From: a virus
Virus record (IMG/VR): IMGVR_UViG_3300005936_000001
Location: 62,001 to 126,000 of that record
DNA: 64,000 bases
Reading direction: 5' to 3' (one strand)
In this document: one piece after another, positions 215-22,306 of the stretch
How positions within the stretch are numbered: position 1 is the first letter of the stretch
How the letters are laid out: each line of letters opens with the position of its first letter
Notes under the pieces: model-generated
Databases searched by the model: none
What the model was told of the DNA's origin: nothing
Seen by the model: the letters and a program-made list of their open reading frames with translations, nothing else
Translations under genes and position numbers: made by a program

Positions 215-461
215 AGAAGCATTCCAAGGGTTAACAATTCCTTCTGAAATGTATGATTTTGTAACTACATATTTTGACGAGCTAAATCGTCCGGATACAA
301 AAAGAGATTGGACAGATCTGGACGATAAAATAAATGAAGTAATTTGTCATAATTGTAGTCAGGGTGCATGTTCGGATTGTCTGGTAAGTGAAGATAATCA
401 ACAGCCTTTTGTTGTGTGGTTGAACTGGCAGGTAAATAAAAAGAAAGGAAAAATTACATAG
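207..461 (+). CDS. Small Cys-rich protein, FQG/WQ paralogue family (member 2)
   Basis: An 84-residue protein starting MSKEAFQGLTIP, the family signature, with C-x2-C-x4-C-x2-C in the middle and VWLNWQVNKKK at the end. The start overlaps the previous gene's stop and is preceded by an AAGG-type ribosome binding site. Probably a small zinc protein; function unknown. It sits two bases ahead of the radical SAM gene, so it may belong to that operon. Confidence 0.75.
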   Translation: MSKEAFQGLTIPSEMYDFVTTYFDELNRPDTKRDWTDLDDKINEVICHNCSQGACSDCLVSEDNQQPFVVWLNWQVNKKKGKIT

Positions 462-463
462 GT

Positions 464-1579
464 ATGAAATTTATAGAAACAGAGGATACAAAAGTTTTAT
501 CCTCAAAAAAGTATAATTATGTTTTTAATAAGATAAGCGGTGATTTTATGCGCTGGGGCGAGACAGAGGAAGAGGATCCGGATATGTCTGTATACGGTCC
601 GGAGATAGCTGATATTGAGATTACTGAAATATGTCATGGAGTGCGATGTGATCTTAACGATGAATCTTCCCGTAAGGTATGCCCCATGTGCTATAAGGGA
701 AATAATCCGTCTAATACTTCTAATATGTCTTTCGAGGTATTTAAACAATTATTTGATAAGCTATGTTCCAGAGTTATAGACGGGGAGATAAAGCCCTGGA
801 AGGTATTGACTCAGATAGCTTTCGGAGCAGATGCACAGGCTACAGCTAATCCCGACTTGTGGAGGATGATGTATTACTGCCGTAATAATCCCTATACAGA
901 AGTAATTCCTAATATAACCGTGGCTGATATATCGGACGAGACCGCGGATAAGTTAGTGGAGTATGTAGGGGCTGTGAGTGTATCCTATTACCCGACACAG
1001 AATAAGAACTGCTGTTATGAATCAGTGAAGAAGCTGACTGACAGGGGTCTGAAGCAGACAAATATACATGTCTGTATCTATGAAGAAAGTTTTGAAGATA
1101 CATTGACTTTGTTTAAAGATATACAGAGTGATGAACGTCTGAGTAAGATGGGGGCTGTTGTGATGCTGTCTTTAAAGAAGAAGGGAAGAGGAGTTAATTT
1201 TACACCTCTATCTGCTGAAAAGTTTAAAGTATTAGTGGATATAGCTTTGAAAGCCAAAATAGATTTCGGCTTCGACAGTTGTTCCGCGCCTAAGTTTCTG
1301 GATGCTGTGCGGGATAGTGATATGTATCCGGAATATTTTAAGATGAGCGAGTCCTGCGAAAGCTTCGGGCTGTTCTCAAGTTATTTTAACTGGGAAGGAA
1401 AATATTTTCCATGTTCCTTCGCAGAAGGGGAAGGAGGATGGGATAAAGGTATTGATGTAATTAATTGTAATGACTTTCTGGACGATGTATGGTTTTCTCC
1501 TCTAGTAAATAAATGGAGGAAGATAAGTCTGGGAACAATTCGTGATGGTGTTCGACACTGTCCTTTATTTAACATTTAA
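464..1579 (+). CDS. Radical SAM/SPASM-like protein with atypical cysteine spacing
   Basis: A 371-residue protein. The segment ITEIC (Cys57), Cys62, then CPMCYKGN (Cys73, Cys76) resembles a radical SAM 4Fe-4S site, but a roughly 15-residue insertion replaces the usual CxxxCxxC spacing. The C-terminal region, with a Cys near residue 298 followed by NWEGKYFPCSF and a last RHCPLF, looks like a SPASM-type auxiliary cluster domain. Such enzymes often modify ribosomally made peptides. Four proteins with an identical Ser-rich leader follow directly in the same operon, making them candidate substrates. That link is inference. The unusual Cys spacing leaves the radical SAM call short of certain. Confidence 0.7.
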   Translation: MKFIETEDTKVLSSKKYNYVFNKISGDFMRWGETEEEDPDMSVYGPEIADIEITEICHGVRCDLNDESSRKVCPMCYKGNNPSNTSNMSFEVFKQLFDKLCSRVIDGEIKPWKVLTQIAFGADAQATANPDLWRMMYYCRNNPYTEVIPNITVADISDETADKLVEYVGAVSVSYYPTQNKNCCYESVKKLTDRGLKQTNIHVCIYEESFEDTLTLFKDIQSDERLSKMGAVVMLSLKKKGRGVNFTPLSAEKFKVLVDIALKAKIDFGFDSCSAPKFLDAVRDSDMYPEYFKMSESCESFGLFSSYFNWEGKYFPCSFAEGEGGWDKGIDVINCNDFLDDVWFSPLVNKWRKISLGTIRDGVRHCPLFNI

Positions 1580-1590
1580 CAGGGAATATT

Positions 1591-1890
1591 ATGAAATATA
1601 GAAGAGGATTTGTAAGTAACAGTTCCAGCAGCAGTTTCTGTATTATGGGAATTGTATTAGAAGAATCGGTCTGGGAGAATATATCTATACAGGATTCTGC
1701 CTTAACGTATTGTCATGGAATAGATGAGTTTTATGAACAGGTTGTTGTAGGGATGCATGTTGAAAACATGAAAGACGATGAAACAGTCAACCTTTTTAGA
1801 GAAAGAATTATGGAAGAACTCACACGTGCTGGAATTGCCGTAGAGTATAAAGATATAGGTTGGTGTGTCGACGGAGGACGTGATGGATGA
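1591..1890 (+). CDS. SNSSSSSF-leader protein 1
   Basis: A 99-residue protein opening MKYRRGFVSNSSSSSF, a leader shared almost unchanged by the next three genes. The remaining 80 residues are acidic and unlike those of the other three, so the leader is the conserved unit. I recall similar N-termini on hypothetical phage and bacterial proteins, but know no function. It follows the radical SAM gene by 11 nt, with an AGGGAAT ribosome binding site, and overlaps the next gene by 4 nt. Confidence 0.85.
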   Translation: MKYRRGFVSNSSSSSFCIMGIVLEESVWENISIQDSALTYCHGIDEFYEQVVVGMHVENMKDDETVNLFRERIMEELTRAGIAVEYKDIGWCVDGGRDG

Positions 1891-2162
1891 AGAATCGAAG
1901 AGGATTTGTAAGTAACAGCTCGAGCAGTTCATTTATAATACAGAAAAAATATTTGAATAATGAGCAGTTAAATATGATTTATGATCATATCAATGTCGCC
2001 AAGGGAATCCTAAAGGAAGATATGGATTATGATATGCCCTGGGATATAAAGAATCATAAAGATCACATTCGAGGAAGTACAATGATGGATAATTTCGATA
2101 TGCATTACTTCCTTACCGAGATAGTCAAGGTTGATGAAGACCATATTGAATGGGATGACTAA
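1887..2162 (+). CDS. SNSSSSSF-leader protein 2
   Basis: A 91-residue protein opening MKNRRGFVSNSSSSSF followed by an unrelated acidic body. It starts in an ATGA overlap with the preceding gene, implying coupled translation. Membership in the four-gene set is clear from the leader. Function is unknown. Confidence 0.85.
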   Translation: MKNRRGFVSNSSSSSFIIQKKYLNNEQLNMIYDHINVAKGILKEDMDYDMPWDIKNHKDHIRGSTMMDNFDMHYFLTEIVKVDEDHIEWDD

Positions 2163-2164
2163 AC

Positions 2165-2632
2165 ATGAAGAATAGAATAAGATTTGTGAGCAACAGCTCC
2201 AGTAGCAGTTTTATAGTTATTGGGGATGAGCCTTCCAGATGTAATTCTGTACTGCTGGAAAAAGAACAGCGTAAAAAAGTATTGGGATATCTTAAGCTGG
2301 ATATCCCAGACGATGAAGTAGTGTACTTAACTGACTTCGTCTGTGAAGGTGATACAGAGGTTCTGAAAGTTCCGAGAGATAAGATACACTTTTATGCTGA
2401 TGGTGGACATGGACATCCTTATAGTGAAAAGGATTACTATGAGCTGGAGGATGCCGGTGTATGGATAATGAAGGAACACTTTAGTGCTGACGGAGAAGCT
2501 GAGAAAATAATCGAGTGGATTCGCAGAGAAGTTCTCGGGGCTGGATTTACTCTGGACCGACGAAATAACACAGTCTGTCTGGAACATCCAAGAAGCGGTG
2601 CAGGATGGGAAATCATAGAAGATGAAGAATAG
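2165..2632 (+). CDS. SNSSSSSF-leader protein 3
   Basis: A 155-residue protein opening MKNRIRFVSNSSSSSF, the longest of the four. The body contains an HGHPYS segment and an acidic C-terminus, with no domain I recognise. It is spaced 2 nt from the previous stop and overlaps the next gene by 11 nt. Confidence 0.85.
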   Translation: MKNRIRFVSNSSSSSFIVIGDEPSRCNSVLLEKEQRKKVLGYLKLDIPDDEVVYLTDFVCEGDTEVLKVPRDKIHFYADGGHGHPYSEKDYYELEDAGVWIMKEHFSADGEAEKIIEWIRREVLGAGFTLDRRNNTVCLEHPRSGAGWEIIEDEE

Positions 2633-2984
2633 AAAAGGATTCGTAAGTAATAGTTCGAGCAGTAGTTTTATACTCGCTATTAAAGAAGCTATCCCCTGCT
2701 CCCTTTGCGGGAGGAGTGATTTAACATATGATAATTTTATCCAGATGATAGAAGGATCTAACGACTCGGACACTGAATTTAGGGGTGAAGGTCTTAAAGA
2801 GGCGGAAGAGTGGTTAGAATCAGGTTATATGGAGGAAGATAAGCTAAATGAAATAAAGAAAAAGATTAGAAAGTTATCTAAGGATAATGAGATAGTACGG
2901 GTGGATGTATCGTACTGCGATGAGCATATTACTGAGATTATAAAAACATCTCCTAATATTCAGATAGTTTGGAGTAATGAATAA
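2622..2984 (+). CDS. SNSSSSSF-leader protein 4
   Basis: A 120-residue protein opening MKNRKGFVSNSSSSSF. After the leader comes a CSLCG pair and a later YCDEH segment, so it may bind a metal. It is the last gene of the cassette and is followed at once by a rho-independent terminator. Confidence 0.85.
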   Translation: MKNRKGFVSNSSSSSFILAIKEAIPCSLCGRSDLTYDNFIQMIEGSNDSDTEFRGEGLKEAEEWLESGYMEEDKLNEIKKKIRKLSKDNEIVRVDVSYCDEHITEIIKTSPNIQIVWSNE

Positions 2985-2986
2985 AA

Positions 2987-3009
2987 AGAGGGCTTAGGCC
3001 CTTTTTTTA
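2987..3009 (+). terminator. Rho-independent terminator closing the SNSSSSSF operon
   Basis: GGGC-TTAG-GCCC hairpin followed by a run of seven T, starting three bases after the stop codon of the last SNSSSSSF gene. Confidence 0.85.
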
Positions 3010-3013
3010 GCTA

Positions 3014-3043
3014 CTTAATTAATGTCATATTATTGGCATAATA
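3014..3043 (+). promoter_or_regulatory. Phage bipartite promoter P1
   Basis: CTTAATTA at 3014-3021, an 11-nt spacer and TTGGCATAATA at 3033-3043. The same two boxes at the same spacing recur at 34913, 40383, 50359 and 54591. It lies directly after a terminator and before a probable small RNA, so transcription likely starts near 3050. Confidence 0.7.
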
Positions 3044-3050
3044 TAATAGG

Positions 3051-3173
3051 CGGGGAGTTTACTTCTTAGACATTATTCACGCTCTTGGCACACCCTGTGA
3101 ATAGGGTACCACCCAGGAGGATGTTACGGAAGAGTTATGGGGTTCGTAAGAACCCATCCCCGTCTACTTTTTT
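3051..3173 (+). ncRNA. Probable structured small RNA (about 123 nt)
   Basis: Begins right after promoter P1. The ends can pair: CGGGGA at 3051-3056 with TCCCCG at 3157-3162, followed by a T6 run at 3168-3173. Internal hairpins include ACCCT/AGGGT (3092-3107) and GGGTTC-GTAA-GAACCC (3140-3155). No open frame of useful length is present. Promoter, closed structure and T-run together suggest a discrete noncoding transcript; the family is unknown. Confidence 0.55.
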
Positions 3174-3207
3174 ATAAATACACCAATTAACAGGAGGAGG
3201 AGGAGGA

Positions 3208-3372
3208 ATGTCCCAAGTTAGGAAGGACACCTGGTGGAAGGACGAGACAATCAGGGATGACTTTAACCAGACAGAGCTGGAACTGGTTCTAGTTAAAAAA
3301 GAGCTTAAAGAGGTTAAAGAGGAGAACACCCTACTCAGGGCTGAGCTCTGTAACCTAAAAACAAAGGAGTAA
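3208..3372 (+). CDS. Small coiled-coil protein
   Basis: A 54-residue frame starting at ATG after an exceptionally strong purine-rich site (AGGAGGAGGAGGAGG). The second half is a leucine/charged heptad-like helix (LELVLVKKELKEVKEEN). It stops one base before the next ATG. Function unknown; small coiled-coil proteins of this kind are often phage accessory or regulatory proteins. Confidence 0.65.
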   Translation: MSQVRKDTWWKDETIRDDFNQTELELVLVKKELKEVKEENTLLRAELCNLKTKE

Positions 3373-3373
3373 A

Positions 3374-3703
3374 ATGGAAACTTATATGTTATCCATACTG
3401 GATTCAGTCCAGGCAGTGCTAATAATATCAGTTATTTTTTGTGTTGTAATTACCATAATAACGGTAATCATGAGGTGCAGCGACGTACCTTTTGAAATTA
3501 ATCGCTGGGTATTAAGATGTTCGATACCTATTGGGATATTATGTTTAATATGTTTGGCTTTTATACCCTCCCAGCAGAGTCTCATTAAGGCTTACCTGAT
3601 GGTGGAGGGATCGAAGTTGGCAACCGCAGATAATGTGGAAAAGTTGTTCACAAAAGTAGATGAGAAGATAGACAAGGCTGTCGATCTTCTTAAAACTAAA
3701 TAG
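3374..3703 (+). CDS. Two-helix membrane protein
   Basis: A 109-residue protein with hydrophobic segments at about residues 14-34 and 48-63 separated by a short charged loop, then an amphipathic Lys-rich tail. It follows the coiled-coil gene with an AAAGGAG site. Two helices plus a charged tail fit a holin-like or other inner membrane phage protein, but nothing here proves lysis function. Confidence 0.65.
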   Translation: METYMLSILDSVQAVLIISVIFCVVITIITVIMRCSDVPFEINRWVLRCSIPIGILCLICLAFIPSQQSLIKAYLMVEGSKLATADNVEKLFTKVDEKIDKAVDLLKTK

Positions 3704-3720
3704 TCTACCATGGTAGACTA
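3701..3720. repeat. Perfect 20-bp palindrome with TCTACCATGGTAGA core (copy 1)
   Basis: TAGTCTACCA followed by its exact reverse complement, straddling the stop of the membrane protein gene. The 14-bp core TCTACCATGGTAGA occurs again at 15583, 42180 and 47530. Symmetry and recurrence suggest a dimeric DNA-binding protein site. Confidence 0.6.
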
Positions 3721-3733
3721 TTGGAGATAAAGA

Positions 3734-4039
3734 ATGAAGAGTAAACTACGTGAATTAAGAAAAAAACTTAATCTTGATATCAAAGAATTAAGAGAAAGTT
3801 GTTCCCATAAAGAAAAGTACATAACAATAAGAGAAGATCGAGGAGCTATAGGTGGTGGTAGTAGTCACCCCTCCATTCATGTTGTATGTACAAATTGTGG
3901 TACGCTGAGATTAATATTTGGTCTCGATAAAGAACAACGCGCCAAAGTAAAAAAAACAATGAAGGCCCAGTTCCCTGAAGAGGATGAACGTCTTAATTGT
4001 TTCACAATGTACGATTGGGAATTAGATGAAAAAGATTAA
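3734..4039 (+). CDS. Hypothetical protein with zinc-ribbon-like CTNCG motif
   Basis: A 101-residue protein with a basic, helical N-terminus, a Cys-Ser-His near residue 23, a Gly-Ser-rich turn and CTNCG near residue 54. This looks like a small zinc-stabilised fold. It overlaps the next gene by 14 nt. Function unknown. Confidence 0.65.
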   Translation: MKSKLRELRKKLNLDIKELRESCSHKEKYITIREDRGAIGGGSSHPSIHVVCTNCGTLRLIFGLDKEQRAKVKKTMKAQFPEEDERLNCFTMYDWELDEKD

Positions 4040-5670: not shown

Positions 5671-5912
5671 TGAATAAAAAGACATTGTATGTGGTTAAAC
5701 ACACTCATAAATATGGATGTTGTTACGGTTATTTCAAATCGGACAAGAATCCTGAGTGGATTGATAATCATATTGATAAAATATGCGATGCTTTATTATT
5801 CGACTTTGAACCGGATAACGTGTTGGAAAATGGTTTAAATGAAACGGTCGAGATTAGAAACGCAGATGATTTGACGTGTGATCTCGAAGAAGAGTTAGCA
5901 AAAAATGAATAA
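5670..5912 (+). CDS. Hypothetical protein
   Basis: An 80-residue acidic protein (VVKHTHKYGCCYGYFKS at the N-terminus). It starts on the last base of the preceding stop and overlaps the next gene by 8 nt. I do not recognise it. Confidence 0.6.
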   Translation: MNKKTLYVVKHTHKYGCCYGYFKSDKNPEWIDNHIDKICDALLFDFEPDNVLENGLNETVEIRNADDLTCDLEEELAKNE

Positions 5913-7757: not shown

Positions 7758-10700
7758 TTATACATCCCAGTTAGCTAGATGCGGGTCAGCCAGTGCCATA
7801 TCCTCGTAGGAAGGACCCTGTACACTGGTAACCAGCGACGGATACCTGCCCCTAATATGCCAGATAGCGGAACAGGCTAGATTAAGAGAGAAAGCAAAGT
7901 CATCTGTTTTGTTAGGGACTTTAATCATAAGGGTATAATCCTTACCGCGGGGAGTTTCTCTCGTCTCCTGCATTATATTCAGCAGATCACTCAATACATC
8001 CTTAGTCTTCCCGTCGTTCTTTTCCCAGTCGGGAAGAGTTACCTGCTGTTTCTTAATCATTTCGAACAGAACCAGTAAAGAACGGGTCTTATCTATATTG
8101 TAACAACTTCTACCACCATTTGCGGGCTGGTAGAAGTTGATGATACTAGTGTTAACAGGGGCGTGGACGATTTGGAAGGGTACTATTTGCTCCACGGGGT
8201 ATCCCCGTTGGACTATTGTGGCTTCCCTTATCATTCCAGCCCCTGAAAAATCGTGTGCAAAATATGTTATCTCGAACTGGTAAGCATATTCAATAAGTTT
8301 CTTAGCTTCGTCTTCTGGTTTTATCCCTATTTTAAATCTCTCAGCATATATACAGTGTACCGTTTCGCTTCCGGGTATTATACCTATTACAGCTACTGTC
8401 GTTGTCGATATACTATCTGCACCGTATCCACTCCAGTCCACTCCCATAACTACAGCATCGTACTTCTTACGTTCTTTAACAGCCTTGGAGTAATCATTGA
8501 TAAGCCCGTTACTAGCCTGTTTAAGGTGCATTACTGTCAGAGGTTTAACATTTTCATCACACGGGACCCCTAATACCTCGTTATTAAATCTAGCTTCCGG
8601 ATAAGTAGACCTCTTATAAAGCATCTCACTCCATTTAAGAGGAAATTCAGCATGCAGAGGGTGTGTTATCTGCGATAAATGATATCCGGCGAACGAATGC
8701 TGTCTATCGGGGTACGCATGCACATATTCTCCTGTACTTATATCCAGAGGCTTACCGCATTTCTTATTAGCGCAGATACAGGTCTTCTTTCCTATCATCC
8801 GTAATAAATCATGGTCCAGACTAGGTATATTATGTTTACCGCACCCACATCTGATGATCCATTCCGCCTGAGAGCTGTCTGAAAACAGAACACCCAGCGT
8901 ATTATCGATAGTTTTAGGGGTTCCGGTAAACTGATAAAATCCATATTCGGTCTGGGCACTTAAAACCTCACCTATTGTACTAATAAAGTCGTATTGTATG
9001 TCAGAAATCTCGTCAAAGCAACAATTATGAGTTAAGATGTTGTTACTAAAGAAGTTAGGTTGTTTTTCCATTTGAATATCATACACATCTTTAATACCCA
9101 CATATTCAATAGAAATCACTTTCCCTTTTGAAGAGATTCTTTCCCCTTGTGATAATTTTCCCTCTTCCGAGCTAAAAATTCCTGTCTGTATTGAGGATCC
9201 TCCTCCATACGTTTCTTTAATTTCTTGTACTGATTCTGCTTTTGAATCTTTACTTTCTCTTTGTTTCGTTTTCTCCATTCCCTGGTATAATCCGTCTCGG
9301 AGGTATCCCCTTTGACTCGTTTTTCTCGACGCCAAGCATTGTGATGATCTATTCTTTTGTTGTATTTTTCTGGATCTTCTTTCAATCTTTGATAATAAAA
9401 TTTCCGTTCCTCTTTTAGTTTTTGTTCGTATACAGGGTCTCCCTTTTTTGAATGTCTCCATTTCCTTCGAGTAGCATTGTGGAGATCTCTTTTCTGAGGA
9501 TCCTTTAAATACTCCTGTATATATTGTCTCTTCTTTTCTTTCATTTCCGGATGAGAGGCATAATATTCCCTCTTTCTTTTGTTTATTCTCTTCTGGTTTT
9601 TCTGAGTATAAATAGCCGTCCTTTTTATATGATGGTCGGTAAAACATTTTTCGGAACATGTCTTGTTGTTGCTCTGTATCTCTGTCCCACATTCTACGCA
9701 GAGTAGTTTTCGATAATCTATCTTGTAATTCATACATTTCGGAGTAAATTCCCGAATTAAATCCACGCAGGTTCTGGTTCCTAGAACAGATAAACATAGA
9801 ATATAATAATATTTCCCTATATTTCTTCTTGATTTTATAGGAACAACATTGTTTTCTATATCGAATTTTTGATAGAGCCATTTTGAAAGGAGCTCTACCT
9901 CTTCTTTTTGAAATCCCTCGGTATGTATCTGTATAGATCGTCGATCTTTTGTTCGCAAACTCCCGTCGTCGCATATCCACCACATCAGCCCTTCGGGAGT
10001 TATCAAGTCTAACCATTCCTGAGATATCGTCTTCTTTTTCTTTCCAGGGAGGTGTATCAGTTCGTGTAAAAAGAACAAATCCGTATTGGTTGTCGTGCCC
10101 CATCGACTGGACCATTCCCCGAACCCCCTGTTCTCGACTTTCTGTGGTTCTCCCAGCCCCAATTGTCTCGGAGTTAAATAATTTTTCATTATTATGTATT
10201 TCTGGGTATTGTAGTCGTGTTGAATCCATCCGTGCGCTGATTGATAACGGCAAGTTTTCTTCTTTAAACTTCCTATTTGTAAATGTCCGTCCCCTAGAAG
10301 AGTTCCCAACAACATCTGTCTTTGTTTTTCTGAAAGCATGAGTCACCATTTCCTCTATAGTTATCCAACCTACATCGCTGAATAATTTATGATCTATTGT
10401 ACATGTTAAAGTATGTCCAGTATTTAAAGTTATACGAAAACAAGGTCTTACCCCTGTTTTTTCAACTCTCTGGACTTTATTATGTATAATATATCCTTCA
10501 TTAGTGACCGATTCAAGGATTCTCCCTATTTTTAAATCTTCTATAGGAGTCCCCTGTATCAAAGTACCTTTCGCTAAACATTTAGCTGCCGCAAATCCAC
10601 GACAACGCTCACAATCTAGGAAAGCATACGAGAAATACATGTTAGAACCGTTTCTAAAGCTCTTCTGCAGGATAGATTGCTCTCTGGTTGGGTCTTCGAA

Positions 10701-11060
10701 CACCCTACCGAGGTAACTTTCCTTGATAATAGGCCCTACATAGTTAGTGGAGAACCTTTTTATCTGATCATAACGGGGCTGAATGTATAAAGTATGGAAA
10801 TTAGGTATCATTGCACTGTCTAAAAGACCTCTGGAAGCAAGCGATATACTTTTTCCCAACTGCCGGGCCACCATAAACACTACCCTACGAGGCATTGTAA
10901 GTTTAAAGAAGGGTTCCAGTGGATAATGCAGATTAAGAGTCATAGGCTTACCGTCTAACTGCAGATATGGAAGCATTGGGAGGTAGGAATTGTATGCTCC
11001 GCTATGATATCCCTGTAAAGTTTGTTTAAATTGTGTGGATAATTCTGACATGTGAAACAA
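7758..11060 (-). CDS. terL: Terminase large subunit interrupted by an intein
   Basis: An 1100-residue precursor. The N-extein (1-160) has the ATPase Walker A motif ARQLGKS (65-71). The intein occupies residues 161-679. The C-extein opens CCFDEIS, the Walker B region, and carries the RNase H-like nuclease domain with GVDWSGYGADS, FAHDFSGAG and a late DDFAFSLNLA acidic motif. After splicing the protein would be 581 residues, normal for a packaging ATPase/nuclease that cuts concatemers and drives DNA into the capsid. Insertion beside Walker B is typical of inteins choosing conserved sites. An initiation codon two residues later (MSELST) is also possible. Confidence 0.9.
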   Translation of the reverse strand: MFHMSELSTQFKQTLQGYHSGAYNSYLPMLPYLQLDGKPMTLNLHYPLEPFFKLTMPRRVVFMVARQLGKSISLASRGLLDSAMIPNFHTLYIQPRYDQIKRFSTNYVGPIIKESYLGRVFEDPTREQSILQKSFRNGSNMYFSYAFLDCERCRGFAAAKCLAKGTLIQGTPIEDLKIGRILESVTNEGYIIHNKVQRVEKTGVRPCFRITLNTGHTLTCTIDHKLFSDVGWITIEEMVTHAFRKTKTDVVGNSSRGRTFTNRKFKEENLPLSISARMDSTRLQYPEIHNNEKLFNSETIGAGRTTESREQGVRGMVQSMGHDNQYGFVLFTRTDTPPWKEKEDDISGMVRLDNSRRADVVDMRRREFANKRSTIYTDTYRGISKRRGRAPFKMALSKIRYRKQCCSYKIKKKYREILLYSMFICSRNQNLRGFNSGIYSEMYELQDRLSKTTLRRMWDRDTEQQQDMFRKMFYRPSYKKDGYLYSEKPEENKQKKEGILCLSSGNERKEETIYTGVFKGSSEKRSPQCYSKEMETFKKGRPCIRTKTKRGTEILLSKIERRSRKIQQKNRSSQCLASRKTSQRGYLRDGLYQGMEKTKQRESKDSKAESVQEIKETYGGGSSIQTGIFSSEEGKLSQGERISSKGKVISIEYVGIKDVYDIQMEKQPNFFSNNILTHNCCFDEISDIQYDFISTIGEVLSAQTEYGFYQFTGTPKTIDNTLGVLFSDSSQAEWIIRCGCGKHNIPSLDHDLLRMIGKKTCICANKKCGKPLDISTGEYVHAYPDRQHSFAGYHLSQITHPLHAEFPLKWSEMLYKRSTYPEARFNNEVLGVPCDENVKPLTVMHLKQASNGLINDYSKAVKERKKYDAVVMGVDWSGYGADSISTTTVAVIGIIPGSETVHCIYAERFKIGIKPEDEAKKLIEYAYQFEITYFAHDFSGAGMIREATIVQRGYPVEQIVPFQIVHAPVNTSIINFYQPANGGRSCYNIDKTRSLLVLFEMIKKQQVTLPDWEKNDGKTKDVLSDLLNIMQETRETPRGKDYTLMIKVPNKTDDFAFSLNLACSAIWHIRGRYPSLVTSVQGPSYEDMALADPHLANWDV
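9024..10580 (-). mobile_element. Intein in TerL with out-of-frame nested endonuclease
   Basis: The splicing element runs from Cys161 (CLAKGTLIQ, block A) to Asn679 in NNILTHN, followed by Cys+1. Block B is seen as HTLTCTIDHKLF and block F as VYDIQMEKQPNFFSNN. Only about 80 N-terminal and 35 C-terminal residues look like a Hint domain. The roughly 400 residues between are a low-complexity basic translation of the LAGLIDADG gene lying in another frame. Precise splice residues are inferred from the conserved motifs. Confidence 0.85.
9116..10339 (-). CDS. LAGLIDADG homing endonuclease nested in the intein in an alternate frame
   Basis: A 407-residue protein with two LAGLIDADG-type helices, MLLGTLLGDGHLQIG at the N-terminus and LMWWICDDGSLR near residue 117, followed by a C-x2-C/C-x3-C zinc element (CVECG, CSEKC) and a long Lys/Arg-rich helical tail with YYxxxLKEDPEKY-type repeats that may bind DNA. 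Its frame is offset from terL, so it cannot be part of the intein polypeptide without a frameshift. A GAGG site lies 12 nt before the ATG. The stop falls just before intein block F. The host frame stays open over all 1.2 kb. Confidence 0.85.
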   Translation of the reverse strand: MLSEKQRQMLLGTLLGDGHLQIGSLKKKTCRYQSAHGWIQHDYNTQKYIIMKNYLTPRQLGLGEPQKVENRGFGEWSSRWGTTTNTDLFFLHELIHLPGKKKKTISQEWLDLITPEGLMWWICDDGSLRTKDRRSIQIHTEGFQKEEVELLSKWLYQKFDIENNVVPIKSRRNIGKYYYILCLSVLGTRTCVDLIREFTPKCMNYKIDYRKLLCVECGTEIQSNNKTCSEKCFTDHHIKRTAIYTQKNQKRINKRKREYYASHPEMKEKKRQYIQEYLKDPQKRDLHNATRRKWRHSKKGDPVYEQKLKEERKFYYQRLKEDPEKYNKRIDHHNAWRREKRVKGDTSETDYTREWRKRNKEKVKIQKQNQYKKLKKRMEEDPQYRQEFLARKRENYHKGKESLQKGK

Positions 11061-12396: not shown

Positions 12397-13302
12397 ATGA
12401 CAAGTATTGAGCGAAGAGTTAGAAAAATAAAAAGTAATGAATATATGTTAGAAGCAGACAGTGATACAAAGAAGGGTGATCTGTATTATTTATCAAAGTT
12501 TCATCATGACAATAAGCTGAGTAATACACAGTTAGATAATTCTCATAGGATAATTTTAGACAGAGCACATATATATACAAGTGTAGAAGCAAATGATAGA
12601 CAGCGTACTCAAAGAGCGGTACAAACTGTGTTTAACGGATTAGAGATGTTTAACGTATATTTAGCTAGAGGTAATCATACACAGTATAAATCCTGGGATT
12701 GTCTTAATAGTGTAAGAATTCCTCCTTTAAGACCTTTATATATTAGATACAATCATAAACCCAGAGAAAAGTACAGGGCTAGAGTTACATACGATTTAAC
12801 AGCCCATTATCCTTATCTGGTATCTAATACAGGCGAGATTAATTTTACCTGGGAAAAATGGACTGAATTTATAATGAATAATCGGGGGTTTTATAATACT
12901 ATATTACACGACTGTGCTCGAGGACAACACTCTTATATTAGAAATATTGCCAGTTCAAATATACAGTGTCTGATTAGAAGCAATCCGGGGGATTTAGTCG
13001 GATTTAAGATAACATGTCCTTTATGTGGGGTACCTGTGAAGTATCTGTTAAAATTAAGAACTTCCTTAGACAGGGGTCTATATATATCAAATACAGAGAA
13101 TGTTATTAAACTAAGTTCAGGCCACTATACATTTTATCGTTCTACAGGTTATCAGTATAACAATTATTTATACCGTAACGAAGAACTTACAGGAAACAGA
13201 AGTATTGTAAGAGGTGACGAACTGGCTTCTATTGTTTTCGGACCGGGTGCTATACGGTATGCTATTTCAAACAATATTCCAATAGAGGTTATTAACTCAT
13301 GA
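12397..13302 (+). CDS. Hypothetical protein heading the replication block
   Basis: A 301-residue, Tyr/Asn/Arg-rich protein starting MTSIERRVRKIKSNEYM after a GAGAGGAAG site. A CPLCG pair near residue 208 could be half of a zinc site. It overlaps the SbcD-like gene by 4 nt, so it is probably co-expressed with recombination functions. AT-rich codon use compared with its neighbours. No family recognised. Confidence 0.65.
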   Translation: MTSIERRVRKIKSNEYMLEADSDTKKGDLYYLSKFHHDNKLSNTQLDNSHRIILDRAHIYTSVEANDRQRTQRAVQTVFNGLEMFNVYLARGNHTQYKSWDCLNSVRIPPLRPLYIRYNHKPREKYRARVTYDLTAHYPYLVSNTGEINFTWEKWTEFIMNNRGFYNTILHDCARGQHSYIRNIASSNIQCLIRSNPGDLVGFKITCPLCGVPVKYLLKLRTSLDRGLYISNTENVIKLSSGHYTFYRSTGYQYNNYLYRNEELTGNRSIVRGDELASIVFGPGAIRYAISNNIPIEVINS

Positions 13303-14393
13303 TATGGTTTATCTCGGATGCACATCTATCCGGAGGAATGTATGTACATCGTCCGCTTATAAAGGGAGATTCATACAGGGCACTGGATAGTATAACGGCT
13401 GATATTTTATCTAAAGACCAGCCCGGATCTGTTATATTCTGTGGAGATAATTTCAATACACCGAAACCGTCTCCGGAAGATGTACAGCATATGACGGATG
13501 TTATCAATTGTTTCAGAGAAAAAGGTATTCCAGTATATGCGGTACAGGGGAATCACGATTTATGTTGCGGGCTGTCCTGGATGCATATCTGCGGAGCTCT
13601 GGACTTAACAGAGAAGGTATACGATATAGAAGGACGAAAGGTGTGCGGGCTGGACTACACTCCGGGCACAAAGATCATTGACGAGCTGAACCGTATTGAC
13701 GGTGAAATTGAGTGCGATATATTGGTAATACATCAGGCTTTCAGACATTTAAGTCCCTTCGACACATTCTCTTTAAGTATAGAGGATGTACCCGGGTCTG
13801 TTCTGGAAGCGGTAGTATCAGGACACATTCATGTTCCCGACAAGCGGGATAACAGCGCCGGTGTATCTATTGTGTCTCCCGGAGCCACACACCCCTGTAA
13901 TATAGCAGAGCCTCCCGGAACGTACATACAATACGACGGCACTGCTTTCATGCATATCAGTACTCCGGTATCCAGACCTATTAAAAAGCTGGTTATCGAA
14001 AAGGAAGAAGATATACAGGGGGTATTGGAATATCTGGAAAGTCTTAAATATCTGGAGGATAAATCTCCGGACGAATGGCCTCTGGTCAGGATAAGATATG
14101 CTTCGGAACTTATCGAGCTTATCAGAAAACTCTCCAAGTTTAAATCCAGATGCCACTTGTTTATAGAAGCTGTGACTGCAGAGGTTCCCGATGTTTCAGA
14201 GGTGGAAGTAAGTATAGCTGCATCTACGGAAGATATTCTTAAACAATGTATCGATGAACACAGTCTGGAGTATAAAACGATTCTGGGATTAACCGATGGA
14301 AATTATCAGGTTATTCTGGAGAATATAAATAAAGCGTTTATAGAACGTTTGGAAAGAATACAAGATGAAATTAAAAAAGCTGCGCCTGTTTAA
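13299..14393 (+). CDS. sbcD: SbcD/Mre11-like exonuclease subunit (T4 gp47 type)
   Basis: A 364-residue calcineurin-type phosphoesterase. The metal-binding motifs occur in order: SDAHLSG near residue 5, CGDN near 48, QGNHD near 84 and SGHIH near 174. With the SbcC-like ATPase encoded next (29-nt overlap) it should form the SbcCD/Mre11-Rad50 nuclease, which processes DNA ends for recombination-dependent replication in T4-like phages. The C-terminal third has the helical and acidic character of the Rad50-binding region. Confidence 0.85.
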   Translation: MIWFISDAHLSGGMYVHRPLIKGDSYRALDSITADILSKDQPGSVIFCGDNFNTPKPSPEDVQHMTDVINCFREKGIPVYAVQGNHDLCCGLSWMHICGALDLTEKVYDIEGRKVCGLDYTPGTKIIDELNRIDGEIECDILVIHQAFRHLSPFDTFSLSIEDVPGSVLEAVVSGHIHVPDKRDNSAGVSIVSPGATHPCNIAEPPGTYIQYDGTAFMHISTPVSRPIKKLVIEKEEDIQGVLEYLESLKYLEDKSPDEWPLVRIRYASELIELIRKLSKFKSRCHLFIEAVTAEVPDVSEVEVSIAASTEDILKQCIDEHSLEYKTILGLTDGNYQVILENINKAFIERLERIQDEIKKAAPV

Positions 14394-16383
14394 TTACTGC
14401 CAATACTCCGATAGAGAGATTACTTTCGAAAAGGGTCTGGCAGTATTAACGGGCTGTAACGGGGCTGGTAAATCGAATCTGCTGAACGCAATATTCTATT
14501 CGCTTACCGGAGAAAGCCTCACAGAAAAGAAGACACGTTCAGGCATGCTTAAGTGGGGTACTGAAAAAGGATTTATCGAATTACTATTCGAAGTGGACAC
14601 AGTTGAATATACTGTTAAGCGTAACATGCATAATGCTTCTGCTTCTATGTCCTGGAAAATAGACGATACTAAATTATCTGCTAATAAAGCTACGGATATC
14701 AATAAAAAGATATCAGAGCTGTTACAGGCGGATGCAGGACTATTGACGTTATCCAGTTTCATGTCTCAGACAGGGACTACGAAACTTATTTTCGGTAACA
14801 ACATGGAACGTCTTAAGGAATACAGCAGACTGTTCGGGTATCTTCGTTTCGAGAAGATCAGAGAGTTACTGCAGTCTTTAAGCGGACAGGTAGATACGTA
14901 TCAGGATTTCTCAGAAGAAGTACAGTCTATCGGGGAAAACATAGCTTTGTTTAAACTGGAGGCGAATCTTCTCAGAGGTACCTTACTTGGACACAGAGAT
15001 CAACTCGCTCAGTTCAAAGAGAGATACGAGAATCTTACACAGGTATCTGTATCCTATACAAAGAAGGAATGGGAAGATGCTGTAGAAGGTATAGAAGCTG
15101 ATATCCAAGGACTGGCTTCTAAGCATCAGCAGAAGGCGCTCGATCTAAAGGGGTGTGGAGATACGGTAATCGTAACAGAAGCCGAGAGGGCTGTGTACAG
15201 CACGTATACGAAGGCTATGGATGCCGGTAGAAGACTTCTCGGTATACAGGAAGAATTAGTAAAGGTAGGTTTCATTGAAAAGCCGGATGCTTTTTCCGAA
15301 GAAGGGCTGGAGGAAGCTGTTAAGAACGCTATACATTACAAACAGAAATACGAAGCGTTTTCAAGAGGTGTCTGTTCTACATGCGATCAGGAAGCAAGTC
15401 TTCCAGATGGGGAACTGGCTGTATTATGTGGTGAGATGGAAACTTCTGAGAGGTTTGTCTCTCATTTGAAAAGAGCTAAACAGGAAGCTTCCGGTGAGAT
15501 GGAAACTTATCTAAAGAATAGACAGATGTATGACTCCTTAACGGAGCAGAGTACAAGAGAAGAAAAAATATTTGTTGAATTATCTACCATGGTAGAAAAT
15601 TTCAATGAGAAGGAATATCTGGAAAAAGTAGGAGAAGCGGAAGCATTCTCCAATACAGAAGAGCTTAGAAAACAATTGGTTGAAGAAATACACCAATTAA
15701 AAATGATGATAGAAATAGATCAACGTAATCTGAAAGAACTTATAGATAAAGGACACACTGAAATAAGTGCCTCCGATATAAAATTCATTAAAGATTATGA
15801 AGAACTTAGAGATTCTCTTATAATGTCAGCAGCAAGTGAGCTGGCAGGTAAAGAGAAAGAAATTGAGATGCTTAATAAGCAGCTAATAGAGAAGGAAGGT
15901 TATATACAATTGAGAGGGCTGTGCGAAGAATATCGTGGCTTTCTCAGAAATGTGCGTGAAGTATTGCACGTTGATAACTTTCCCAGAAAGATGATATCGG
16001 CATATAGAGGTATACTGACCGGATTGGTCGGTAAATATCTTAATGTCTTTAAACAACCTTTCTGTATTAGTATCAATGAAGATCTCGCTGTCGTCTGCTC
16101 GTTCCCGGATAATCCCGAAGTTAGTATTTCGGACTTATCAGGTGGACAGCGGATGTTATTAACTATCGCTTTTCGTTTAGCTATATCAGAAATGCTTGCT
16201 TCTAAGATAAACATGATAATATTTGACGAACCTACTAATCATATGGATTCTGACTCTAAGGACTATCTGGCTGAGACATTCAGTCTTGTCAAGGAGTACT
16301 TGAAGATAAAGGATATTCAGATGATAGTGGCAACGCACGAAGAGAAGATAACAAATATTGCAGACTATGTAATTGAAGTTTAA
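14365..16383 (+). CDS. sbcC: SbcC/Rad50-like ATPase subunit (T4 gp46 type)
   Basis: A 672-residue SMC-like ATPase. Walker A is GCNGAGKS near residue 30. Two coiled-coil arms flank a zinc-hook CSTC (Cys337/Cys340). The ABC signature LSGGQR lies near residue 592 and Walker B with IIFDEPTNHMD near 620, followed by an H-loop ATHEE. It should pair with the SbcD-like nuclease. Oddity: the TCTACCATGGTAGA palindrome lies inside the coding sequence at 15583. Confidence 0.9.
   Translation: MKLKKLRLFNYCQYSDREITFEKGLAVLTGCNGAGKSNLLNAIFYSLTGESLTEKKTRSGMLKWGTEKGFIELLFEVDTVEYTVKRNMHNASASMSWKIDDTKLSANKATDINKKISELLQADAGLLTLSSFMSQTGTTKLIFGNNMERLKEYSRLFGYLRFEKIRELLQSLSGQVDTYQDFSEEVQSIGENIALFKLEANLLRGTLLGHRDQLAQFKERYENLTQVSVSYTKKEWEDAVEGIEADIQGLASKHQQKALDLKGCGDTVIVTEAERAVYSTYTKAMDAGRRLLGIQEELVKVGFIEKPDAFSEEGLEEAVKNAIHYKQKYEAFSRGVCSTCDQEASLPDGELAVLCGEMETSERFVSHLKRAKQEASGEMETYLKNRQMYDSLTEQSTREEKIFVELSTMVENFNEKEYLEKVGEAEAFSNTEELRKQLVEEIHQLKMMIEIDQRNLKELIDKGHTEISASDIKFIKDYEELRDSLIMSAASELAGKEKEIEMLNKQLIEKEGYIQLRGLCEEYRGFLRNVREVLHVDNFPRKMISAYRGILTGLVGKYLNVFKQPFCISINEDLAVVCSFPDNPEVSISDLSGGQRMLLTIAFRLAISEMLASKINMIIFDEPTNHMDSDSKDYLAETFSLVKEYLKIKDIQMIVATHEEKITNIADYVIEV
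15583..15596. repeat. TCTACCATGGTAGA palindrome (copy 2)
   Basis: Exact 14-bp copy of the core palindrome, here inside the SbcC-like coding sequence in the coiled-coil region, where it encodes STMVE. Confidence 0.5.
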
Positions 16384-16400
16384 AACAAAGGAGTAGTAAA

Positions 16401-17816
16401 ATGGAACTGAGTCTATCTGGAAACCTTCTGATGATAAGACCCTGGATGCCTGAGCTGGAGGGGGAGCTCTTTTTCTGGCGCAGGGAGTTCAGCCCTTCCG
16501 GAGGCAAGCCTAAGATGCGTAAGGAAACAATGTATTACACGCACGAGGTGGATGGCGAACAGGTAGGATATATTCCTGAGGGTCTTCTGGACAGAGTCAG
16601 GAACTATCTGAATAAGCGTAATATTGTATATACATTTAAAGATTATAGAGTATGGAGTACACTCCCGGTCCCTGACTTCTCGAAGGTGGATGTTCTTGAA
16701 CTGAGGGATGGGCAGGATGTGGCGCTTGTCAGAATAGCTGAGAACTACAATGGAGTCATAGAGGCTCCGACATCGTTTGGTAAATCCTATCTGATACAAC
16801 AGATCTGTAAGATGTATCCCTATCTGAAGATAGTAATATGTACTCCACGTAAGTCGGTAGTTAAATCTCTGTATGAACGTTTGATATCTGATATTGTGCT
16901 TAAGGAAAACGTGGGTATAATATCTTCGTGGAAGAACACAGGTTCTGACTGGAGGATAGTTGTATCGACAGTAAAGTCTCTTCTGAAGACAGACTATGAG
17001 AAGACTGATCTATTGATGTTCGATGAATGCCACGGTGTCGGGGCTGTTACAACTTCAGGAGCGCTGGCTAAGTTTTCCAGAGCCAGGAAGTTTGGTTTCA
17101 GCGCCTCCCCTGAAGGCAGATGTGATGGAGCGGATATGGCACTTGAATCTATGTTCGGACCGGTACGCTTTGATTATACATATATGGAAGCTGTTGACGC
17201 AGGTTCTGTAGTACCTATAGAAGTACATATGTATACAATGCGTGGAGACACTCTGGACACGTCAGGCAGAATAGCTATAAAAAGGTGGGGGCTGTGGAAG
17301 AACGTCAATCGTAATAAAAAGATTGCCGAGATAGTTAATAAGTACGGTCCCGACGAGCAGGTGTTGATAATGGTAGAGACACTTGAGCATGCTATGAATC
17401 TGAAGAAGGAACTCCCTGACTACACAGTTGTATATTCCAATTGCTCTGAGAAGAGATATGCGGGATTCGTCAAAAGAGGGCTGACTTCCGATAAACGTAT
17501 GTCAGACAGAGAGATGATGGAGTGTCAGAATAAGTTTGAGACGGCGGAATTGACTAAAGTGATTTCAACAAGTGTGTTCCGTGAGGGGGTAAATTTTGTT
17601 CATTTAAGAGCACTTGTGAGGGGAGATGGGCTGTCTGGAGCTATTCCTAACATTCAGATACCGGGACGTTTAAGCAGACTGGACAAAAACAAGGAAAAAG
17701 GAATTCTTATTGACTTTAAGGATACTTTTAACGAAACATTGGAAAGAAGTAGTGAAAGCCGTATAAAGCATTATCAAAAGGCAGGGTGGAAAGTGATATA
17801 TGATGATAAATTGTAA
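16401..17816 (+). CDS. uvsW: UvsW-like superfamily 2 helicase
   Basis: A 471-residue SF2 helicase. Motif I is APTSFGKSY near residue 127, motif II DECH near 210, motif III FSAS near 233 and motif VI QIPGRLSR near 428. The N-terminal 80 residues resemble the DNA-binding region of T4 UvsW, which unwinds branched DNA and R-loops and helps switch from origin to recombination-dependent replication. It lies directly after SbcCD. A DEAD-type helicase of another phage family is the alternative. Confidence 0.8.
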   Translation: MELSLSGNLLMIRPWMPELEGELFFWRREFSPSGGKPKMRKETMYYTHEVDGEQVGYIPEGLLDRVRNYLNKRNIVYTFKDYRVWSTLPVPDFSKVDVLELRDGQDVALVRIAENYNGVIEAPTSFGKSYLIQQICKMYPYLKIVICTPRKSVVKSLYERLISDIVLKENVGIISSWKNTGSDWRIVVSTVKSLLKTDYEKTDLLMFDECHGVGAVTTSGALAKFSRARKFGFSASPEGRCDGADMALESMFGPVRFDYTYMEAVDAGSVVPIEVHMYTMRGDTLDTSGRIAIKRWGLWKNVNRNKKIAEIVNKYGPDEQVLIMVETLEHAMNLKKELPDYTVVYSNCSEKRYAGFVKRGLTSDKRMSDREMMECQNKFETAELTKVISTSVFREGVNFVHLRALVRGDGLSGAIPNIQIPGRLSRLDKNKEKGILIDFKDTFNETLERSSESRIKHYQKAGWKVIYDDKL

Positions 17817-17845
17817 TTGACAACCTTCTTTATACAGTGTATTGT
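17817..17845 (+). promoter_or_regulatory. Sigma70-like promoter before the HNH gene
   Basis: TTGACA, a 17-nt spacer and TATTGT in the gap after the helicase gene. This differs from the phage bipartite promoter and may serve the HNH gene on its own, as expected for a mobile insertion. Confidence 0.45.
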
Positions 17846-17882
17846 ATCTTATAATTAATTTATTAATAAAAAGGATACAGAC

Positions 17883-18755
17883 ATGGATACAACAAATATT
17901 GATGCAGGTGTTGTAGAAGTTAGTAAAAAGAAGGAATATACTTATAAATTTGATAATACTAAGTTTGAATTGCTGGAAGAATTACCTATTAAAATGTATA
18001 ACTATACTGATAAATATGGTAAATTTAGTCCCGCTAAACAACATATGGTAAAACTTAAATGTAAGAAATGTGGGCATGAAAAAATAGTTTGTGATAAAAG
18101 TAAACTTAGTTGTAAAGAAGGTATTTGTAATATCAGGTTTGTTGATAGAACAGGTATAAAATATGGTAATTTAACTGCTCTAAAACCTGTTAAAACAGAT
18201 AATGCTATACACCCTTGGCAATGGTTGTGTAGATGCTCTTGTGGGGAAAAAGAATTAGTTGCCGCAGCTATTTTAGTGAGTGGTAAAGAGAGTTGTCGCA
18301 AATGTGGAAAAGAACATCGTATAGAACATAATTTATTAAAGGGAGATGCAGCTAAGTGGCATAGAATAATACGAACCTATAAAAAGAATGCATTAAAAAG
18401 AGGTAGATGTTTCGAATTATTAGAAGAAGAATGTATGTCTCTTTTTAAAGGCGATTGTTTTTATTGTAGTGAACCTCCCGCAGTAGATTCCGCTGGGCTA
18501 ATTAGAAGTGGAATAGATTGTAAAAATGCTCTAAAAGGATATACCACAGATAATACAGTTAGTTGTTGTCCCGTGTGTAATATTATGAAAGCGGCTCATT
18601 CAATACCTTCTTTTCTAAGCCATATTCTTAAAATAGTAAACAGTAGCAAGGATATGATAGAATTATTGGACGAAGATATTAAAAAAGAGGGGTCTCTGCA
18701 GTATAGTTTTCATAGGGACCGCTATGTGATGTTTGGTGAAAAAAGGAATAAATAA
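17883..18755 (+). CDS. HNH-type homing endonuclease (free-standing)
   Basis: A 290-residue protein with zinc pairs CKKCG near residue 60, CRCSCG and CRKCG near 118-140, and an HNH-like core: CFYCS near 197, a GIDCKN strand, then CCPVCNIMKAAHS near 222. The first catalytic position is less clear than in classical HNH enzymes. AT-rich codon use and a private promoter set it apart from the replication genes around it, which suggests later acquisition. Its stop overlaps the start of the next gene. Confidence 0.7.
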   Translation: MDTTNIDAGVVEVSKKKEYTYKFDNTKFELLEELPIKMYNYTDKYGKFSPAKQHMVKLKCKKCGHEKIVCDKSKLSCKEGICNIRFVDRTGIKYGNLTALKPVKTDNAIHPWQWLCRCSCGEKELVAAAILVSGKESCRKCGKEHRIEHNLLKGDAAKWHRIIRTYKKNALKRGRCFELLEEECMSLFKGDCFYCSEPPAVDSAGLIRSGIDCKNALKGYTTDNTVSCCPVCNIMKAAHSIPSFLSHILKIVNSSKDMIELLDEDIKKEGSLQYSFHRDRYVMFGEKRNK

Positions 18756-19258
18756 TGACATACAATGATATAAACAGAGAGGTACATGAATTCAATGTTC
18801 CGTACCGTCTTAAGGACAGTGAGAAGGTGAAAGAGCTTATTGTCAAACTGGAATCTACAGGTATATCCCCCTACGAGTATTGTCATTATGTATACAGGTA
18901 CTGGGGGCCTGATAAACTTGTGGAAGGTATAGTATGTTCTGATAAGGCATGGGAGGAATTCCAGGCATTCAGAAATATTCGTATCGGTGAAAATAGAATA
19001 AAGACAGAGCTGGAGAAGAAACGTCTCAGATATTTATTACAGTCAGGACAGTCTGTAAAAGAGATAATCAGCTCAAATCTGGAGACATTTTTCACCCTGT
19101 TCAAATACATCCTAGCCTCTATAGAAGGGCTGGAGGATAAAGAAAAATATAATGAGGGAGCTATCTATGAGCTGAGAAGTATGCCTGAGTTGAGGCAATA
19201 CTTTGATGAGTTTGGCGAGAGATATTTTCCGGAATACAAAGAGGTAGCGCATGAGTGA
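18755..19258 (+). CDS. Hypothetical protein upstream of the replicative helicase
   Basis: A 167-residue, mainly helical, charged protein. It overlaps the DnaB-like helicase gene by 8 nt, a position where phages often encode a helicase loader, but I see no AAA+ or T4 gp59 motif. Treat the loader idea as positional inference only. Confidence 0.6.
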   Translation: MTYNDINREVHEFNVPYRLKDSEKVKELIVKLESTGISPYEYCHYVYRYWGPDKLVEGIVCSDKAWEEFQAFRNIRIGENRIKTELEKKRLRYLLQSGQSVKEIISSNLETFFTLFKYILASIEGLEDKEKYNEGAIYELRSMPELRQYFDEFGERYFPEYKEVAHE

Positions 19259-20744
19259 TATTTTAAGTAAGTGCGATTATGATATACTTCTTCTACATAT
19301 TCTGAAAGACCCTAAGACATTTTTAAATTTTGTTGAGAAAACAGATGAGCCGGTTTTTGATCCGGTTAAGTATACAGCCCATGACTTTATAGCTAAGGTC
19401 ATCCGGGATATTTACTACCAGCACAATGAGTTTATGGCGGTAGGAAGTCTTAAATATAAAGTATATGAACGTCTGGAAGAATCAGGGTTTGACGACACTA
19501 TAAAAAATCTGGTAAAACAGACTTTTGAATACGCTTCCAAAATTGACACCGAAGAACTAAGTCCCTCTATAGCTAATAATATACTTGAAAAAGTTATTAA
19601 TAACCAGATAGCCAGGGATACTACGAAGAAGCTGGAAATGGTTCTTGAAAGAGGTACAACTACTGGAAGTATATTGAAGGAAATGTCTTCGGAGATCGAC
19701 AGTCGCAGGTTGGGGATGTCCGATCAGATGAGTATTATGAATCCTCTGGAAAACATGGGGGAGTACATGACGCACAGTGAAGTATTTCCTACTGGTGTTG
19801 AATTTGTAGATACAATGCTTCGAGGAGGCCCCTGGAGACACGATCTGCTGGGGTTGTTGGCACCCTCCGGCGGAGGTAAAACTACCTTTGCTATACAAGT
19901 TCTTATCTCATGGATACGACAGCATCCGGACAGACACTCTGTATTACTATCGTACGAACAGCCCCTGGAGGGTGATATATCTTCCAGACTGTGTTCGGCT
20001 GTAACAGGTCTTTCCACTGAATTATTCAGAGGGAAGACAATGGAGGAGCTGAAAGACGGTGTCCGTGAAAAGTATACGAAGTCTATTGAAGGAATAAAAG
20101 GTAGATTTCATATGGCGGATATGAGTAAGGGGATAGCGGGAACAAAGGGTCTGGAAGATATACAGTATATTCTAGACCAGTTTAATCTTCCCGAAGAAGG
20201 CCCCCCTACGTTGGTAGTAATAGATTGGCTGCTTCCTCTGGTACAGAGAGCTATGGTGGGAGAAGGAGTGACAAGTTTAACAAACGAGTCTTTCCGTCTC
20301 TATTCGACACAGTTTATGGATGCTCTGAAAGTTATGAAGAACAACCGTAATATAATAATAATAGTCAATCACCAGTTGACAGCTGACAAGGCAGGAGCTT
20401 CCTCTAACAGGAAACCTAACTGGACAGATGCGGCTGAATGGAAAGGATTCGCGTGGTATATGGATGTTTGTTTTGCGATAGGAGTATTGTCTGAGGAACA
20501 GATAGCATGGTTCTGTGCTTCTAAAGTAAGAGCTACAGCGTCTTCTGATATACTCGTAAAACTTAGAGGGGATTATATAAAGTTTGTGAAAGCGGATAAT
20601 GATTTTATGCTTACAAACGGAAAGATAGTTCCTAAAGTTAAAACAATGGACAACCGTGATAATTCCGGTAACCGCAGTAAAGCGGATGTCGGACATCTTA
20701 AAGGGCTGGACAGTGAGTCGGCGACGGCTCAGTTCGGTGAATAG
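19251..20744 (+). CDS. DnaB-like replicative DNA helicase
   Basis: A 497-residue protein with an N-terminal helical domain and a RecA-like ATPase: Walker A APSGGGKTT near residue 205, a YEQP motif near 231, Walker B LVVIDWL near 323 and a NHQL sensor near 375, the usual order in DnaB/T4 gp41 helicases. It unwinds DNA at the fork and partners with the primase encoded next. The C-terminal tail is charged and probably disordered. Confidence 0.8.
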   Translation: MSDILSKCDYDILLLHILKDPKTFLNFVEKTDEPVFDPVKYTAHDFIAKVIRDIYYQHNEFMAVGSLKYKVYERLEESGFDDTIKNLVKQTFEYASKIDTEELSPSIANNILEKVINNQIARDTTKKLEMVLERGTTTGSILKEMSSEIDSRRLGMSDQMSIMNPLENMGEYMTHSEVFPTGVEFVDTMLRGGPWRHDLLGLLAPSGGGKTTFAIQVLISWIRQHPDRHSVLLSYEQPLEGDISSRLCSAVTGLSTELFRGKTMEELKDGVREKYTKSIEGIKGRFHMADMSKGIAGTKGLEDIQYILDQFNLPEEGPPTLVVIDWLLPLVQRAMVGEGVTSLTNESFRLYSTQFMDALKVMKNNRNIIIIVNHQLTADKAGASSNRKPNWTDAAEWKGFAWYMDVCFAIGVLSEEQIAWFCASKVRATASSDILVKLRGDYIKFVKADNDFMLTNGKIVPKVKTMDNRDNSGNRSKADVGHLKGLDSESATAQFGE

Positions 20745-20752
20745 GAGTATTT

Positions 20753-21781: not shown

Positions 21782-21782
21782 A

Positions 21783-22303: not shown

Positions 22304-22306
22304 ATA

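Follow-up and report, generated by a model that had tools for sequence, protein, structure and literature searches.

A viral terminase intein with a homing endonuclease gene apparently nested in a second reading frame

Introduction

Can the endonuclease of a mobile intein be encoded out of frame with the protein that the intein interrupts? Intein homing endonucleases are usually described as domains of the spliced protein. The question is raised by a terminase gene in a stretch of viral DNA of 64,000 bases (the window; it spans 62001-126000 in a virus record 185,256 bases long), in which an endonuclease gene lies between the two halves of an intein but in another frame. Our analysis of this locus and its relatives suggests that, in a family of bacterial viruses, more than 1,000 contiguous bases are read in two different frames.

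A nested endonuclease in the terL intein

The gene for the terminase large subunit (terL; PHROG 675, E 3.4e-41) occupies positions 7758-11051 on the minus strand, and homologues without an insert are found among the sequences L029-L103. Its frame is free of stops from the ATG at 11051 (an alternative TTG at 11060 is possible) down to 7758, and comprises an N-extein (10581-11051), an intein of 519 codons (9024-10580) and a C-extein (7758-9023). The intein is located in the Walker-B region of this essential phage packaging gene. It starts with CLAKG, the Cys being residue 1, and finishes with FFSNNILTHN|C, i.e. a terminal His-Asn followed by Cys+1. The amino-terminal part of the Hint domain, with blocks A and B and the T-I-D-H residues, lies at 10335-10580, whereas the carboxy-terminal part, with blocks F and G, lies at 9024-9146 (both in the TerL frame, minus strand). 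Between them a LAGLIDADG_2 homing endonuclease gene of 407 codons (PF03161, E 8.5e-24) runs on the same strand from ATG to TGA (10339-9116), offset by +1 to the TerL frame (712 mod 3 = 1). Its first codons overlap the last residues of Hint-N, and its last codons and stop overlap the first residues of Hint-C. In the endonuclease frame a TGA stands two codons ahead of the ATG. The TerL-frame reading of the endonuclease gene (9147-10334, minus strand), here called the shadow, amounts to about 396 residues without a single stop.

An earlier note on this DNA had placed the intein at 9024-10580, which is exact from Cys1 to the C-terminal Asn. It had also described a TerL frame that stays open through the intein with Hint blocks at both ends, and a 407-codon LAGLIDADG endonuclease in an offset frame with its own ATG; both observations hold. 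Its view of the ribosome binding site as weak, on the other hand, was wrong: the Shine-Dalgarno-like sequence UAUAGAGGAAAUGGUGA ahead of the endonuclease ATG (10343-10359, minus strand) pairs with the anti-Shine-Dalgarno sequence at -7.5 kcal/mol, which ranks this ATG in the top 5% for the locus.

The intein matches the Pfam family Intein_splicing (PF14890) with E 3.7e-12 and 46.8 bits vs a cut-off of 35.8. In the AlphaFold model of its TerL-frame translation, Hint strands are predicted with confidence at residues 1-82 and 479-519, and the top Foldseek matches are the RecA and DnaB mini-inteins. Cys1, TIDH in block B, THN|C and a precise in-frame insertion are all present, as expected of a class 1 Hint-type intein, and TerL homologues without the insert align across the intein region. 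The roughly 396 residues between the Hint halves mostly have pLDDT values of about 23-57 and are predicted to be disordered.

When modelled alone (AF2), the endonuclease has a mean pLDDT of 83.5, with about 81-98 over residues 1-210. An I-SceI-like core occupies residues ~1-210; beyond it come a short CxxC...C...C segment and then a C-terminus that is basic and helical. Foldseek matches the model to I-SceI (E 3.7e-12) and also to I-WcaI, and phmmer gives E 4.5e-6 and 6.2e-7, respectively, for the same two enzymes. Across 17 relatives, neither LAGLIDADG motif shows any variation in its acidic residue. From the family match, the modelled fold and the two acidic motif residues, the nested product is predicted to be a PF03161 LAGLIDADG homing endonuclease of the I-SceI type.

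Elsewhere the window holds a group of recombination and replication genes at 13299-24076 (a metallophosphoesterase at 13299, an SbcC-like ATPase at 14365 and a family A DNA polymerase at 22307) and an adenylosuccinate synthetase-like gene at 58668-59789. ARAGORN found no tRNA genes in window positions 1-64000.

Recurrence in other terminases and in a helicase

Profile searches with the endonuclease and the terminase yielded six further TerL genes with the nested arrangement (L003, L008, L084, L091, L109 and L131). Together with the window, seven of seven show the +1 offset. Where compared, their endonucleases are 24-33% identical to the window enzyme, and the GC content of these loci ranges from 33 to 56% (L003, 0.56; L008, 0.52; L084, 0.45, taken from the second contig; L109, 0.34; L131, 0.33). 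Contig L108 shows the L084 case again; over 7.8 kb the two have three mismatches, all of them outside the intein. L091 has one indel towards the end of the endonuclease (about 5690-5900) that shifts the terminase and endonuclease frames together, so that this copy is either broken or mis-sequenced. L131 carries a terminase (236-3874) with two inteins a few residues apart, of which the first is small and without an endonuclease, while the second (1283-2674) holds the nested gene. A scan of the genomes of 84,980 species with two short patterns confirmed no relative.

Most of the 80 TerL relatives listed are without an insert, and the nearest such TerL among those found is 46% identical to the window protein. 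From this sporadic distribution we infer that the window intein is mobile.

An additional case comes from a cultured isolate with a complete genome, Xanthomonas phage FoX3. Its helicase gp40 contains an intein (DE|CIVGD...LVHN|CHH) with a nested endonuclease of 252 codons at offset +2, which is unannotated in the record. The annotation had led to a reading as an ordinary in-frame intein; the frame check overturned it. It is important to note that the helicases of FoX1, FoX2, FoX5, Murka and M29 are 97-99% identical to that of FoX3 and lack the 942-bp insert. A base-by-base comparison with FoX1, FoX2 and Murka places the insert exactly between Glu and Cys of DECHH. Presence and absence at the exact site are thus observed, and the direction and mechanism would be those of an insertion by homing: cleavage of an intein-less allele is suggested indirectly by this difference between FoX3 and FoX1/FoX2/Murka. 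With its near-identical intein-free siblings, FoX3 makes the idea testable in culture.

The insertion point is DE|C in L003, L008, L091 and L109 and DE|CHH in FoX3, and lies a few codons further upstream in the window and in L084. By sequence, the host-gene sites cluster at the Walker-B/DExx motif.

Not all of these inteins appear equally fit for splicing. The window, L109, L131 and FoX3 have the full set of Hint catalytic residues (C1, TxxH, HN and C/S+1), and splicing is best supported by sequence for these four. L084 and L091 have Glu in place of the block-B His. In L003 and L008 the intein begins with Ser, the block-B His is missing and block G is degenerate, with ends that read PQ|C and AN|C; since their Hint domains are, moreover, barely detected by Pfam, their splicing is uncertain.

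Regarding the start site, we ranked the pairing of the nested ATG with the anti-Shine-Dalgarno sequence against ATGs in the locus for the window, L003, L008, L084, L091 and L109. In four of the six (window, L003, L008 and L091) it was among the best 5%; a strong Shine-Dalgarno sequence was not found at the nested ATG of L084 or L109. As in the window, stops in the endonuclease frame lie immediately upstream of the open reading frame in L003 and L008. A promoter of the endonuclease's own was not apparent, promoter-like sites being no commoner than in shuffled sequences.

Two open frames

The number of stops expected by chance was estimated by keeping the endonuclease protein fixed, shuffling synonymous codons in 4000 trials and counting stops in the TerL frame. 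Across the window endonuclease no stop is observed, compared with 27.5 +/- 3.3 expected (minimum 17 in the 4000 trials), and the third frame over the same stretch has 31. The host frame is likewise free of stops in every intact case, where 12.5 (L003), 15.4 (L008), 16.7 (L084), 14.6 (L109) and 20.7 (L131) would be expected. For FoX3 the contrast is smaller (0 vs 3.3 expected, P 0.006), and because so few stops are expected, the family matches carry as much weight in its assignment as stop avoidance does.

In place of an analysis of synonymous-site constraint, for which the window copies are too alike (identical) and the relatives too divergent, we compared the identity of TerL-frame residues between phages with the identity forced by the endonuclease frame. 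Shadow identity is near the forced level, with z < 2 for most pairs and marginal values of 2.1 and 2.4 for two. The close pair L003/L008 reaches z 6.4, a value that shared ancestry would suffice to explain. We considered purifying selection on the shadow residues and rejected it, since identity hardly exceeds what the endonuclease imposes, apart from the two marginal pairs and the L003/L008 excess, for which common descent could account.

These results bear on the reading proposed in the earlier note, according to which both frames avoid stops, the locus is dual coding and the intein loop is merely the shadow of a nested gene. Stop avoidance is borne out by the counts in the TerL frame. The loop behaves as a shadow should, its residues being mostly unconserved beyond the forced level. 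Dual coding gains support from the recurrence in divergent phages, the stop-free TerL frame, and the predicted disorder of the shadow as opposed to a folding Hint domain and endonuclease.

Origins and related inteins

In the tree, which left out L131, the window groups with L003 and L008 (87/86), and the other terminase cases are not resolved. FoX3 falls apart from the terminase cases, albeit with weak support. A single origin was discarded as a firm reading, since the tree does not resolve the point. Because of the separate position of FoX3 and its other offset, the nested architecture likely arose at least twice, judging from these sequences, and a single origin is the less probable scenario.

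In-frame relatives exist as well, namely the terminase intein L009 and the RNA polymerase intein L007 of the same virus. L007 (G000:C1 about 163059-163316, outside the window) belongs to an open reading frame in which Rpb2 domain 6 is joined to Rpb1 domain 1 (a beta-beta' fusion). Its LAGLIDADG_2 intein is of the conventional in-frame kind, so that the two architectures coexist in one genome. LAGLIDADG_2-type endonucleases were also seen recurrently fused, within a single long open reading frame, with a DNA methyltransferase-like part, assigned by eye from an SPPYW motif, and with zinc-finger-like segments (L016, L018, L020-L024 and L124).

In the helicase of Pectobacterium phage Abuela, Hint-N, an out-of-frame LAGLIDADG endonuclease and Hint-C are found in separate overlapping open reading frames. 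By annotation, Amona, Ymer, Koroua and Sabo are like Abuela (L118 and L119 being Abuela and Amona). By sequence this locus looks like a split intein, and it could represent what a nested intein becomes once stops enter the shadow.

A model and its alternatives

Taken together, we consider it very probable that the terL insert is a mini-intein that splices, and that its loop arises by translation, in the TerL frame, of a nested homing endonuclease gene with an initiation site of its own. Splicing, internal initiation and translation of the endonuclease, cutting and homing are the steps that we infer. Ribosomes on terL would traverse the insert from end to end, producing Hint-N and Hint-C joined by about 396 unstructured residues. 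The two parts of the Hint domain would then fold together, leading to a spliced terminase from which Hint and shadow are removed. Other ribosomes would start at the internal Shine-Dalgarno sequence and ATG of the same mRNA and produce the I-SceI-like endonuclease with its basic helical tail. This enzyme would cut intein-less terL alleles, and repair would copy in the whole insert. Selection would keep the endonuclease frame for homing and the TerL frame stop-free for packaging, while the shadow residues would be largely free otherwise.

Several other explanations have to be weighed against this model. Homing endonucleases are established to cycle through invasion and loss (PMC3229294), and the arrangement might therefore be real but decaying, with an endonuclease that is no longer expressed and both frames only transiently open after a recent event. 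The broken or mis-sequenced L091 and the Pectobacterium phages, with stops in the shadow and a split-intein-like layout, would fit such a course. However, catalytic motifs and open frames persist in loci whose enzymes share only 24-33% identity with that of the window, which argues for a long-lived nested state. Codon usage in the overlap speaks in the same direction: its fit to the endonuclease frame is slightly better than to the other frames, and neither this frame nor the terminase frame fits as well there as the Hint or extein parts do. We therefore regard decay as improbable. Even less credence is given to programmed +1 frameshifting from terL, perhaps with a shift back, into a conventional fused intein-endonuclease. 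Such conserved recoding would require the +1 offset that is indeed common to all seven TerL cases, but entry into the endonuclease frame is unlikely because stops lie just upstream of the nested open reading frame in three phages (window, L003 and L008), leaving little room for a shift. A start codon with a Shine-Dalgarno sequence in four cases, the other offset in FoX3 and the need for a second shift to regain the TerL frame are further points against it.

Removal of the insert as RNA, i.e. as an intron with an open reading frame and unused Hint-like ends, might be considered as LAGLIDADG_2 enzymes such as I-SceI are known from introns. Yet no Rfam intron match was obtained at E 1 in window 8800-10800, nor in L091, and the insert has a PF14890 match and a Hint fold, with Cys1, His-Asn and Cys+1 all in place, a length that is a multiple of 3 and a stop-free host frame. 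This explanation thus appears very improbable. Finally, a conventional in-frame intein could have been disguised by paired indels from sequencing or assembly, and the frame-shifting indel of L091 indicates that errors or decay occur in the TerL-intein family. Contigs from two other metagenomes (3300023297 and 3300022884) are, however, 100% identical to the window over 9.0 and 11.2 kb, and a third (3300023435) contains the C-extein. Since the identical contigs may stem from one virus population with the window, recurrence in divergent phages, including the complete genome of the isolate FoX3, is the stronger argument. It removes the paired sequencing error that the earlier note had named as fatal to its reading, and the absence of stops from the TerL frame, where some 27 are expected, leaves error with hardly any plausibility.

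We lean, with some reserve, towards the broader view that these loci form a class of mobile inteins of their own, which has evolved repeatedly and is long-lived, and in which splicing and homing are two overlapping genes and not two domains. A nested endonuclease would do the job of a domain in at least eight phages, in two host genes and in both alternative frames, which suggests that a standalone endonuclease gene is able to settle in an intein out of frame and to stay there. If so, the splicing and homing parts would each be freed from the other's folding, the level of the endonuclease could be set separately, and split inteins could emerge by way of stops that appear in the shadow. The loci would also be natural long same-strand overlaps in which one product serves only as a spacer. 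Such enzymes would tend to escape gene callers, and also surveys that look for inteins in frame, and so be hidden from standard annotation; that of FoX3 is one unannotated instance.

Comparison with known systems

Word searches of 5.39 million open-access papers did not turn up any intein whose endonuclease is out of frame. Non-canonical actinobacteriophage inteins are the subject of a 2025 preprint (10.1101/2025.01.02.630785), which PMC11855218 cites beside a remark on overlapping frames and which may overlap with the present finding.

Canonical LAGLIDADG inteins, such as PI-SceI, the L009 terminase intein and L007, likewise have the endonuclease between the Hint halves. In these, however, it is an in-frame domain of the spliced intein, whereas the window enzyme is out of frame at offset +1 and has its own start and stop. 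Dassa et al. reportedly described in 2009 fractured genes, in which a free-standing endonuclease gene separates the two parts of a split intein. These resemble the present loci in that the endonuclease is encoded separately between Hint-N and Hint-C, but their host frame is interrupted and the intein acts in trans; the window terL frame is continuous and gives one polypeptide, while the host frame of the Pectobacterium phage L118 is interrupted. I-SceI and I-WcaI are the nearest solved relatives in sequence and fold, and they are also independent open reading frames in a self-removing element. There the carrier is an intron; here it is an intein, and Rfam covariance models detect no group I intron at 8800-10800.

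The nearest published thing is the out-of-frame HNH insertion of the ShiLan type. According to PMC11855218, this is an HNH enzyme of 195 aa with no detectable splicing domain, thought to stay in the host protein; PMC12613952 adds Applejack. Both systems combine a homing-type endonuclease in an alternative frame with a host frame that is kept open, are sporadic in phages and are inserted precisely in a conserved stretch of a gene. In contrast to the ShiLan-type insertions, which have no detectable splicing domain, the present loci enclose a LAGLIDADG enzyme between the two parts of a Hint domain, and the host is a terminase or a helicase.
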